NCBI GenBank assembly: GCA_001604135.1
Contig: LVAT01000022.1
Coordinates: forward strand, 1 to 64,000
Reading direction: 5' to 3'
Origin: Clostridiales bacterium Firm_14
Lineage (GTDB): Bacteria > Bacillota > Clostridia > Saccharofermentanales > Saccharofermentanaceae
Length of the DNA stretch: 64,000 bases
The notes beneath the pieces are model-generated. The model saw only the letters and a program-made list of their open reading frames with translations. It was not told the DNA's origin and ran no database searches. The position numbers and the translations under genes were made by a program. Each line of letters opens with the position of its first letter. The first letter of the stretch is position 1. Positions 30,598 through 33,728 of this stretch are shown here, one piece after another.

Positions 30598-30640
30598 AAA
30601 AAACTTACCGGCCTGACCTTTCGGGCGGCCAGACCGGTAA
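30598..30640 (-). terminator. Intrinsic terminator after the ThiT-aquaporin gene
   Basis: CTTACCGG...CCGGTAAG stem (plus 30603-30640, with inner CTG/CAG pairing) followed by TTTTTT on the minus strand. Confidence 0.9.
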
Positions 30641-30705
30641 GCAACGTGGAAGGGGAAATCATCCCCAAAATGGATTCAGTTTAATCGTCTGCTTTCACAA
30701 CAAAC

Positions 30706-32058
30706 TTATTTGGCAGTCTTCTCTTCCTTTGCCTTTGTAATTGCCTTATAAACAACTGCCGCAAGTGCCGCGCCTGCCAAAGGTCCGACGATGAATACCC
30801 ATAGATCGGTAAGTGCTGCTCCGCCTGCGAAAAGAGCAGGTCCGATGGAACGCGCAGGGTTAACCGATGTTCCTGTAAGGCTGATGCCAAGGATGTGTAC
30901 GAGAACGAGAGCAAAGCCGATTACGATTCCGCCGAATGAACCGTGCTTGAACTTCTCGTCAGTAACACCGAGGATAGCCAAAACGAAGATAAATGTGAGA
31001 ACTATCTCAACGATGAGTCCTGCAACAATGCTTCCGTTTACGCCTGCAAGACCGTTTGCGCCGAGCCCCCACTTAGCCATCTCGATATTGCCTTCAACTT
31101 CTTCCGTAACGCCTGTCATGTCGATCTTTCCTGCCTGTGAGAAAAGATACTGGAGAAGGCCTGCACCGGAGATCGCACCGAGAGTCTGGAATACGATGTA
31201 GCCCCAGAATTCAGTGACAGACAGTTTTTTCGAGATCAGCATCGCAAGAGATACTGCAGGATTGATGTGGCAGCCTGATACGTTGCCGATGGAGTAAGCC
31301 ATTGCAACGATAACAAGACCGAAAGCAAATGCTGTAAGGATATATCCGCTGCCGTTTGCAGAATCGCAGCCTACAGCCATTGCAGTGCCGCAGCCGACGA
31401 ATACGAGTACGAATGTACCGATGAATTCAGCCGTGAACTTCTGAATGTAATTGATCGTCGCATCTTCCTTGGAGGAAGGGATAACCATGTAGAGAACAAC
31501 GAGCACAACTGCAAGGATAGCAAGGTCAGCCAAAAGGAATGAACCGTTGTAGACCATCGAGTAAACGAGTGCGCTGTCGTAGCCTGCATCAGCAGCATAT
31601 TCAGAATAGAAAATTACGCCTGAAGCAACTGAGCCGAGCCATCTTACAAGATATGCAACGATAGTGAAAGCGATGATCTTAATGACAGATGCACCTCTGA
31701 ATCTGTTAAGCGCACCGTTCACCTTGATCCTGGAATCAGCCTTGAGTGCTGCAAATCCAGCAAATCCTAATGCCGTGTAACCGAGCGTATAGTCGAGGAA
31801 CACCTGGAAAGGTGTTACAAGCCAGCCGCCGATGAGCTGCAAAAGGCTGAAGATAAAAGCGATGATGAAGCCCCATACAGGTCCGAATGCAACACCGTAA
31901 ACGATGATAGGCAAAGTTGATGCCGGTGTTACCGTACCGCCCATGGGCATCTCAAAGAGCTTGAGCTGTGAGAGTACGAATGCAAGTGCCAGGCAAACGC
32001 CGCCCGTGGACACGCGCAGTATGTACTCGCGGTTTGAATTAAGTGATTGTTTGGACAT
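30706..32058 (-). CDS. Fusion of ThiT thiamine carrier and AqpZ-like aquaporin
   Basis: 450 residues in one continuous frame. Residues about 1-190 resemble the ECF S-component ThiT (TVTPASTLPIIVYGVAFGP, FQVFLDYTLGY, VIFYSEYA, VYSMVYNG). Residues about 206-445 are a complete MIP channel with both NPA boxes (GCHINPAVSLA and GTSVNPARSIG). The filter residues read as water-type: Tyr in MAYSIG, His in LVHILG, Thr and Arg in TGTSVNPAR. The linker PSSKEDATINYIQ joins them. A TPP riboswitch precedes the gene, supporting a thiamine role for the N-terminal half. ThiT would need an ECF module encoded elsewhere. I know of no characterised protein of this architecture. Confidence 0.88.
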   Translation of the reverse strand: MSKQSLNSNREYILRVSTGGVCLALAFVLSQLKLFEMPMGGTVTPASTLPIIVYGVAFGPVWGFIIAFIFSLLQLIGGWLVTPFQVFLDYTLGYTALGFAGFAALKADSRIKVNGALNRFRGASVIKIIAFTIVAYLVRWLGSVASGVIFYSEYAADAGYDSALVYSMVYNGSFLLADLAILAVVLVVLYMVIPSSKEDATINYIQKFTAEFIGTFVLVFVGCGTAMAVGCDSANGSGYILTAFAFGLVIVAMAYSIGNVSGCHINPAVSLAMLISKKLSVTEFWGYIVFQTLGAISGAGLLQYLFSQAGKIDMTGVTEEVEGNIEMAKWGLGANGLAGVNGSIVAGLIVEIVLTFIFVLAILGVTDEKFKHGSFGGIVIGFALVLVHILGISLTGTSVNPARSIGPALFAGGAALTDLWVFIVGPLAGAALAAVVYKAITKAKEEKTAK

Positions 32059-32134
32059 AAAAACACCTCCGTCAAATGGATTTCTGATCCCTTGAGATCA
32101 CACCAATTACAGGAGGCCAAAAGAATATATATAA

Positions 32135-32214
32135 GGTTCCCTACGCCGGCATTATCCGTCAGGTTCAGCGGGTCGGATGTCTGATCCCTCTCAGCTTTTT
32201 AAAGCTCCCCGATT
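32135..32214 (-). promoter_or_regulatory. TPP (THI-box) riboswitch
   Basis: Minus strand shows the THI core in order: CGGGGAGC, GCTGAGAGGG, GACCCGCTGAACCTGA, GGATAATGCC and GCGTAGGGAA. Downstream, GGCCTCC (plus 32112-32118) can pair with the GGAGG ribosome site (plus 32066-32070), so control may be translational. It represses the gene when TPP is plentiful. Confidence 0.95.
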
Positions 32215-32230
32215 TCCGTTTGTCGCCAAA

Positions 32231-32259
32231 AATATACTACTTGATCCGAATGAATACAA
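32231..32259 (-). promoter_or_regulatory. Promoter of the TPP-riboswitch transcript
   Basis: TTGTAT (plus 32254-32259), 17-bp spacer and TATATT (plus 32231-32236) on the minus strand, about 15 nt before the riboswitch. Confidence 0.75.
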
Positions 32260-32279: not shown

Positions 32280-33650
32280 TCAGGCCTTCGCACTGTACTT
32301 TTTCGCAGGGCGCTTTATGAGCAGCAGGATAAAGATCGCAAGCGCGTTCACGCCGAGGCTCAAAGGATATACTGCCATGATGCTCGTAAATGATCTGAAC
32401 TGCTCGAAAACAGTATATATCCAGATGATCCTTATTCCGCAGATGCAGCACATCGTAACGAGCGCGGGCGACAGCGAGATTCCGTAGCCTCTCATATAGC
32501 CGCTCATGACGTCATAGAAGAGCGATAAAAGGTGCGCGGTCGTAATGAACATGACCCTGATATAACCGATCTCAACGAGCTCGGGATCGCCGGGTCTGAA
32601 GATCGCTATCAGGTCCCTGCCGAAGAACAGGAGAAATGATACCATCAGCCCTTCGATGACAATGCCTTCAATAAGGCATAGCCTCAATGACTTCTTGCAT
32701 CTGTCGAACTTCCTTGCTCCGTAGTTCTGGCCAGTGAATGTCGTGCATGCCTGACCGAAGCTGTTGAGCACATAGTAAGAGAATATCTCGATGTTGAAAG
32801 CAGCCGAAGATGCAGCAGCAACAAGGGTTCCCAAACTGTTTATCGCTGACTGGATTATGATGTTTGCAGCAGAGAAAACGCATGCCTGAAGGCTTGAAGG
32901 AATGCCGATCTTAAGGATCTTCTTAAGGACGGACCCGCTGATCCTAAGCTTCTTCTCATTGAACCTTGCAGGGGTTTTGGACTTCTTTAAGAAAAGCAGC
33001 AGGACAATGCCGCTTATCATGTTCGATATAACCGTCGCAGTAGCAACGCCGTCAACGGTCCTTCCCATAAATACTACAAAGAAAACATTGAGACCGACAT
33101 TGATAATGCCTGCTATTACGAGCGCGAGGAACGGTATCCTGGTATTGCCGATGCCTCTGAATATCGCGGCTTCGAAATTATATAAAAGTATCACAGGTGT
33201 TCCTGCGATATAGATGCGGAAATAAAGCAACGCCATGCTGAATGCTTCATCTGAAATATTCTGCATCCTGAAGATCGGTTCAGCCAGAATTTCGCCTAAC
33301 AAAGCAATGATGACACCGCCTAATACAGCGACTATCATGGAAGTGTGCACGGCCTTCTGAACTGTCTCGTCATCCTTGCTTCCGACTGCATTTGCGATGA
33401 CGACATTGGTACCTAATGAGATGCCCAGAAAGCCATTGATTATGAAGTTTATTATCGGAGTATTGGCGCCGACTGCAGCCATTGCAGCCTTTCCGGCTTC
33501 ACCGGTGAAGTTGCCTACGACGGCAATGTCTGCCGCGTTAAATGCCTGCTGCAGGATTCCGGTCAATGCCAAAGGAAAAGCGAATCCCAGGATCTTATTC
33601 CAGAGACTTCCTTCTGTCATGGATTGTTTTCTTATTTTCTTGGCATTCAT
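32280..33650 (-). CDS. MATE-family efflux transporter
   Basis: 456 residues from MNAKKIRKQSMTEG; GAGGA is 7 nt before this ATG. Twelve predicted helices in two homologous halves, with family landmarks GSLWNKILGFAFPLALTGILQ at the N-terminus, AAMAAVGANTPI, GTNVVIANAVG and TFTGQNYGA. It should export cationic drugs or metabolites with Na+ or H+. The substrate is unknown. It lies upstream of the TPP-controlled gene, whose own promoter falls just beyond this gene's stop. Confidence 0.9.
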   Translation of the reverse strand: MNAKKIRKQSMTEGSLWNKILGFAFPLALTGILQQAFNAADIAVVGNFTGEAGKAAMAAVGANTPIINFIINGFLGISLGTNVVIANAVGSKDDETVQKAVHTSMIVAVLGGVIIALLGEILAEPIFRMQNISDEAFSMALLYFRIYIAGTPVILLYNFEAAIFRGIGNTRIPFLALVIAGIINVGLNVFFVVFMGRTVDGVATATVISNMISGIVLLLFLKKSKTPARFNEKKLRISGSVLKKILKIGIPSSLQACVFSAANIIIQSAINSLGTLVAAASSAAFNIEIFSYYVLNSFGQACTTFTGQNYGARKFDRCKKSLRLCLIEGIVIEGLMVSFLLFFGRDLIAIFRPGDPELVEIGYIRVMFITTAHLLSLFYDVMSGYMRGYGISLSPALVTMCCICGIRIIWIYTVFEQFRSFTSIMAVYPLSLGVNALAIFILLLIKRPAKKYSAKA

Positions 33651-33728
33651 ATGAATCCTCGCGAACAAACTAGAAGGTTATATCACCTTTTTCGCGAATC
33701 TCATATAAGGAAAATAAACAAAAGTGTC

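Follow-up and report, generated by a model that had tools for sequence, protein, structure and literature searches.

The window, by which I mean the whole stretch of DNA that was analyzed (64,000 nucleotides, from contig LVAT01000022.1 of Clostridiales bacterium Firm_14), carries on its reverse strand the gene thiT-aqpZ (30706..32058), a frame of 450 codons without interruption that encodes two kinds of membrane protein in a single polypeptide. The N-terminal half (amino acids 1-195; 31474..32058, reverse strand) resembles the thiamine S-component ThiT, and the C-terminal half (amino acids 210-450; 30709..31431, reverse strand) is related to Aquaporin Z, as seen in an alignment to 1RC2 and others. 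Between them lies a tether, SKEDATINYIQKFT (amino acids 196-209; 31432..31473, reverse strand), of 14 residues, running from the IPS of the ThiT half to the AEFIG of the channel. Pfam recognizes both domains: Thia_YuaJ (PF09515) at amino acids 18-194 (E = 4.3e-34; 118.6 bits, with a cut-off of 25.8), where the match takes in positions 3-173 of the 177 in the profile, i.e., the whole domain, and MIP (PF00230) at amino acids 201-437 (E = 5.5e-51; 173.9 bits, with a cut-off of 25). The preliminary description had read the frame as a fusion of ThiT with AqpZ, and the open frame and the two domains above cut-off bear this out.

The names that NCBIfam places nearest to the halves are ThiT (TIGR02357) and AqpZ (PRK05420). 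The first is matched with 100.6 bits, below the equivalog cut-off of 108.45, and I therefore class the N-terminal half as ThiT-type, a member of PF09515. The second is matched with 197.7 bits, below the equivalog cut-off of 256, while the cut-off of the MIP family TIGR00861 is passed (176.8 vs. 171.25 bits), and the C-terminal half is accordingly classed as an AqpZ-type MIP channel. A family profile made from relatives of the ThiT half matches ThiT of Lactococcus lactis (3RLB; E = 6.5e-28), and a search of PDB sequences with the ThiT half alone, as a single sequence, gave nothing useful. An AlphaFold model of the fusion as a monomer, of moderate confidence (mean pLDDT 74.9, pTM 0.72), has helix 6 of ThiT at 163-192 and then the first helix of the channel at 201-230. 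Foldseek, given the whole model, returned aquaporins only among the 50 listed of 128 matches (E up to 0.001), and so the ThiT half draws no confirmation from its fold. The gene is a new domain architecture built from two known families. It had been said beforehand that no example was described, and a full-text search of PMC likewise gave no fusion of an S-component with an aquaporin in the titles and opening abstracts among the matches listed.

Ahead of the gene is the aptamer of a TPP riboswitch (RF00059; 32121..32221, reverse strand), as had been proposed, scoring 64 bits against a gathering score of 54.3. The leader containing it does not fold more stably than shuffled sequences (z = 0.54), a comparison that says nothing about the expression platform. 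A possible promoter, TTGTAT-17-TATATT (32231..32259, reverse strand), can be found by eye. The promoter had been called good, which was generous, since the candidate has 8 of 12 consensus matches, under the threshold of the scan, and the strict scan reported none ahead of the aptamer; a candidate exists, and it is a modest one. On the 3' side of the fusion gene is a terminator-like site (30603..30642, reverse strand) with a stem of 16 pairs and a run of T. Three such sites occur in the region, compared to a mean of 2.0 in shuffled sequences, and the stem of this one exceeds those of the other two. Upstream of the riboswitch is a gene for an efflux protein of the MATE family (32280..33668, reverse strand; Pfam MatE).

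Conservation of the two-domain architecture in related genomes, suggested early on as a check, was examined in the genus, where 25 of 85 genomes carry the fusion, in 26 copies that are 78-100% identical and match from amino acid 1 to amino acid 446-450. Counted between stops, each copy occupies one frame of 453-522 residues; the match in G044 runs past a TAA, at which the slightly shorter protein of that genome ends. The window's genome (3.12 Mb in 45 contigs) has the fusion once and a separate AqpZ elsewhere, at 73% identity. Searched with the fusion protein, 23 of the 25 fused genomes give exactly two matches, the fusion and an AqpZ (that of G063 being partial). There are three matches in G011 (two fusions and an AqpZ) and three in the window's genome, where the third is weak, at 25% identity. 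Since G011 has two copies along with 7% contamination, its bin may be mixed. Besides the weak match just mentioned, this search found no separate ThiT in the 25 fused genomes. Some of them contain weak extra matches to Thia_YuaJ (e.g., 25.5 bits in G001), which I take for other S-components. By the counts of matches per genome, the fusion is the only recognizable ThiT of its genomes, yet not their only aquaporin.

Twenty-four fusion loci are also present in a named collection, under titles giving Saccharofermentans, Ruminococcaceae, Clostridiales, Oscillospiraceae, or Clostridia. Several fusion-bearing records have titles that mention the gut, of ruminants or of other animals, and two of the loci, from Ruminococcaceae bacterium AB4001 and YAD3003, are in records without a MAG label. 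Beyond the genus, no fusion appeared among the matches listed for 30 other genomes of the family (115 searched in all) or among those listed in a search of the order with PF09515 (188 genomes in all), and none was seen, with E up to 1e-40, in even draws of 391 genomes from the class and 398 from the phylum. Two frames considered as fusions were rejected by eye. The 567-residue frame of G165, a candidate for a second, independent fusion of ThiT, owes the part before ThiT to an arginine-rich chance translation that overlaps another frame, and the 295-residue frame of G062 is a type of ThiT with extra C-terminal sequence and without an aquaporin. The other ThiT frames in the order, at 245-332 residues, have insufficient length for both domains.

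Within the genus, there are a few genomes whose status is ambiguous. G009, G010, and G072 (84, 77, and 89% complete, respectively) give no match to ThiT, yet their free AqpZ groups with that of the fused genomes, and G076 (84% complete) has a distant solo ThiT with a free AqpZ that likewise groups with that of the fused genomes. Missing sequence, mixed bins, or loss of the fusion are possible in these cases.

The pocket of the ThiT half was assessed by placing residues by hand from the alignment to 3RLB, at positions that I take to belong to the thiamine pocket of the lactococcal protein (E84, Y85, K121, G129, Y146, N151, Y74, W133, H125, and W34). The first six correspond in the fusion to D89, Y90, R139, G147, Y166, and N171, each the same residue or a conservative change, and these are found in all 26 fusions, except for Y166, found in 25. 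The positions of Y74 and W133 stay aromatic in the fusions (W/Y79 and Y/F151). H125 and W34 are replaced by S143 and G41, as is also true of the solo ThiT proteins of the genus. The preliminary description was correct in noting Asp (D89) at the place of lactococcal Glu84, but there is nothing special in it: D89 is invariant in an alignment of 42 rows (25 fusions and 17 solo ThiT), and in another alignment of 21 rows as well. The invariance in the 42 rows rules out the substitution as a mark of altered specificity. In helix 1, the presumptive docking motif reads G20xxxA24 (small-xxx-small) in 26 of 26 fusions, short of a strict AxxxA, with A24 invariant in the same 42 rows. Passages of PMC11109136 describe the AXXXA motif of helix 1 as the site of docking to EcfT and an effect on ThiT when the motif is mutated.

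The aquaporin half was described from the outset as a complete channel like AqpZ, with both NPA boxes and a filter of the water type, and this description has held up. The boxes, at N266 and N400, are both present in all 26 fusions. The residues F246/H388/T397/R403 align to the filter of E. coli AqpZ (in the alignment with 1RC2 and others), presumably F43/H174/T183/R189 in the numbering of that protein, and the same F/H/T/R filter is found in all 26 fusions and in all 40 standalone AqpZ proteins examined. Both halves of the fusion are under purifying selection, with a median dN/dS (Nei-Gojobori, 325 pairs) of 0.090 for ThiT and 0.112 for the aquaporin.

The relationships of the two halves were examined by means of trees (LG+G4, without a mixture model). 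Of the 60 unfused genomes in the genus, 19 contributed their solo ThiT to the ThiT tree, 20 their AqpZ to a first aquaporin tree, and 20 (19 plus G035) their AqpZ to a second. The standalone AqpZ of the fused genomes is represented in the first tree by 20 of the 25 (as it is in the comparison of dN/dS below) and in the second by 23, G020 and G063 being absent; the second tree also leaves out the standalone AqpZ of G055, owing to its long branch, and G868, for which no open frame with the motif was found. The ThiT halves of the fusions form one clade (99/98) inside the 19 solo ThiT of the genus, all of which fall outside that clade, with those of G043 and G035 nearest to it. The fused aquaporins also form one clade, with support of 100/100 in the first tree and 98/93 in the second. 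Rooted on five outside rows, they are a lineage apart, outside both the free AqpZ of the genus and nine external AqpZ, and since they are a separate lineage in both aquaporin trees, the idea that they are recent duplicates of the free AqpZ is unsupported. The distances of the ThiT and aquaporin halves correlate with each other (r = 0.58, a value as high being reached in 0 of 2000 permutations).

Unfused congeners have a riboswitch and a solo thiT at the syntenic place. The riboswitch scan covered 12 of the 19 solo thiT loci, and an aptamer precedes thiT in all 12 (5 at the gathering score and 7 at 47-54 bits), as it does in all 26 fusions (25 at the gathering score and one at 52.9 bits). The riboswitch is therefore older than the fusion. 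The neighboring genes were compared in 22 solo loci, a set that includes three selected because the ThiT frame was a different one or longer, one of these three being from another genus. The solo thiT directly follows a gene for an alpha/beta-hydrolase in 18 of the 22; in three of the remaining four, a larger frame on the opposite strand took the place of the hydrolase in the layout of genes used for the comparison, and one has no neighbor that clusters. In the fused loci, the MATE gene stands between the hydrolase and thiT-aqpZ (hydrolase and MATE having been identified by Pfam in the window). The MATE similarity cluster is present at 26 of 26 fusion loci vs. 0 of 22 solo loci, which places two gene gains on the same branch.

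The gene fusion in the window is genuine and has been inherited vertically. The orthologous locus and the riboswitch on the solo thiT indicate that an aquaporin gene was added at the 3' end of a thiT already governed by a TPP riboswitch, most simply once, with MATE gained upstream on the same branch. A different event may be seen in G062, where the gene for the type of ThiT with an extra C-terminal part (L170:1414-2268, reverse strand) adjoins the same hydrolase gene, which suggests that thiT was replaced in place in that genome.

In the window's genome, the shared ECF module is encoded on contig C6 by the genes for EcfA-A' and EcfT, which lie between rplQ and truA, with one more gene before truA. 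Both ECF ATPases of this contig lie in one frame of 601 residues with two ABC_tran stretches (L195:3780-5582, reverse strand), between rplQ and ecfT. There are six matches like S-components in the genome, four of them above cut-off, including the fusion and ThiW, and TPK is also present. The only other TPP riboswitch found in the genome precedes thiW-thiM-thiE-thiD-thiC (L087:6442-10436, on contig C12). A search for ThiG, which gives matches in all 14 control genomes, produced in the window's genome one partial match (25.9 bits, with a curated cut-off of 23) in a frame of 310 residues, which was rejected by eye as ThiG, for it lies between frames like FabD and FabH; it is probably an enoyl reductase, of what I take to be the FabK kind. 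To judge from its genes, the organism apparently makes the pyrimidine and salvages the thiazole, the latter being probable in view of the thiW-thiM-thiE-thiD-thiC genes and the lack of a convincing ThiG. With the ECF module, TPK, and ThiW-ThiM added to this, uptake of thiamine or thiazole is probably important to it.

The best explanation of the locus, and one I consider fairly probable, is that the gene encodes one bifunctional membrane protein, a thiamine S-component on a channel of the AqpZ type. From the single conserved frame, the selection on both halves, the single clade, the riboswitch, and the ECF genes, I infer the following working. The ThiT half would bind thiamine outside, dock on the shared ECF module, and get toppled. 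The aquaporin half would be an intact water channel, presumably in the usual tetramer, and there would thus be four units of ThiT per channel tetramer, hung by short tethers of constant length, on what I assume from the topology of both families to be the cytoplasmic side of the membrane. TPP would repress the whole protein by way of the riboswitch. The rigid tetramer might keep four S-components close and thereby improve their recapture of a limiting shared ECF module, and it may disturb the adjacent bilayer, making toppling easier. That S-components compete for a limiting module, associating with it and dissociating from it, is described in passages of PMC7755397 and PMC12075633, and that imperfections in the bilayer ease toppling is a speculation offered in PMC7755397. 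A physical reason of this sort for the retention of the tether is the one I prefer, yet it is conjecture, since there is a free AqpZ in each fused genome and a solo ThiT suffices in congeners. Toppling with a tetramer attached would seem mechanically odd, as the preliminary description remarked.

It is rather unlikely, though worth serious thought, that the aquaporin gene merely landed behind thiT and the stop was lost, leaving two halves that act independently, with a thiamine-regulated copy of an aquaporin as the sole effect. The constraint on the fused aquaporin is what one would expect in that case, the same as on its free relative and no more (dN/dS of 0.113 vs. 0.108 for free AqpZ, both from one set of 20 among the 25 fused genomes), and the residues of pore and pocket are the same as in free relatives. 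The sequence of the tether drifts, with a median dN/dS of 0.39 over amino acids 196-204 (147 of 325 pairs usable), but its length does not: 25 of the 26 copies have 14 residues here and the remaining one has 15, in contrast to the end of the protein, which from NPARS onward ranges from 47 to 69 residues across the fusions. Independence of the halves also sits poorly with the retention of all 26 copies as fusions and with the retention of the free AqpZ, which makes the fused copy dispensable as the sole water channel. Finally, the stretch from the third to the fourth membrane helix is 43-48 residues long in all 26 fused channels, as compared to 32-34 residues in 42 of the 43 free AqpZ of the genus, making the loop about 12 residues longer (amino acids 311-336 of the fusion, with Trp330 in 26 of 26). 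A long loop is not, however, a mark unique to the fusion, as the standalone AqpZ of G008 has one of 48 residues.

The fixed length of the tether and the long loop might tempt one to go further and view the halves as a single machine, in which the state of ThiT (with thiamine bound, docked, or toppled) is relayed through tether and loop to the pore (a water channel responsive to a vitamin) or the tetramer serves as a platform for efficient toppling of four S-components. I consider this improbable.

It is very unlikely that the message gives rise to two proteins, through internal initiation or through cleavage of the tether. It is true that 26 of 26 copies have an ATG in frame, coding for M191 in the window, 20 or 21 codons ahead of the EF(I/V)G of the aquaporin, but in none of them is there a stretch like a Shine-Dalgarno sequence ahead of any in-frame start codon up to 30 codons before the channel. 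Moreover, M191 sits at the end of helix 6 of ThiT in the AlphaFold model, and the same Met is found in the solo ThiT of G065. Slighter still is the chance that the aquaporin half passes, instead of water, a solute that belongs to thiamine metabolism, such as the thiazole alcohol that ThiM salvages. The probable salvage of thiazole would give such a channel a use, but the narrow filter of the water type is identical in all the fusions and all the free AqpZ examined, and the genome already has ThiW as an S-component for thiazole. As to an artifact of assembly or sequencing that deleted a stop and a start, where relatives would always have two genes, the worry raised in the preliminary description, it is refuted by the 26 intact copies spread over 25 of the 85 genomes, by the 24 loci of the named collection, of which two come from records that bear no MAG label, and by the purifying selection on both halves.

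The bifunctional protein that I favor may be set beside what is known of its parts. It is like ThiT/YuaJ (PF09515; 3RLB) in its S-component half, the TPP riboswitch upstream, the conserved acidic residue, the Tyr and Asn at presumed pocket positions, and the small-xxx-small form of the helix 1 motif, and unlike it in the complete aquaporin at the C-terminus and in having D, S, and G at lactococcal E84, H125, and W34, differences common to the unfused relatives in the genus. With Aquaporin Z (PF00230; 1RC2, E. coli) it shares the two NPA boxes, the F/H/T/R filter, and a full-length MIP domain, but it has ThiT at its N-terminus and a TPP riboswitch ahead, and it differs from the free AqpZ of the genus in the longer loop between the third and fourth membrane helices. 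The nearest parallel I can offer comes from passages of PMC11109136, which describe a 5TMR domain (the S-component fold) fused to a transporter like NRAMP. There too, a fold like that of an S-component is joined to an integral membrane transporter, but the 5TMR is of a sensor type, stands at the C-terminus, is prevalent in archaea, and has NRAMP as its partner.

The way in which S-components topple is still under investigation, and so is the question of whether each cycle requires them to leave the ECF module, as described in passages of PMC12075633. An S-component that is naturally attached to a large and rigid membrane protein has fewer possible motions, and if the fusion transports thiamine, then its tether and channel would place strict limits on models of toppling. 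For structural studies, the fusion also comes with a bulky fiducial already in place. For the organisms themselves, it places a water channel under a vitamin riboswitch.
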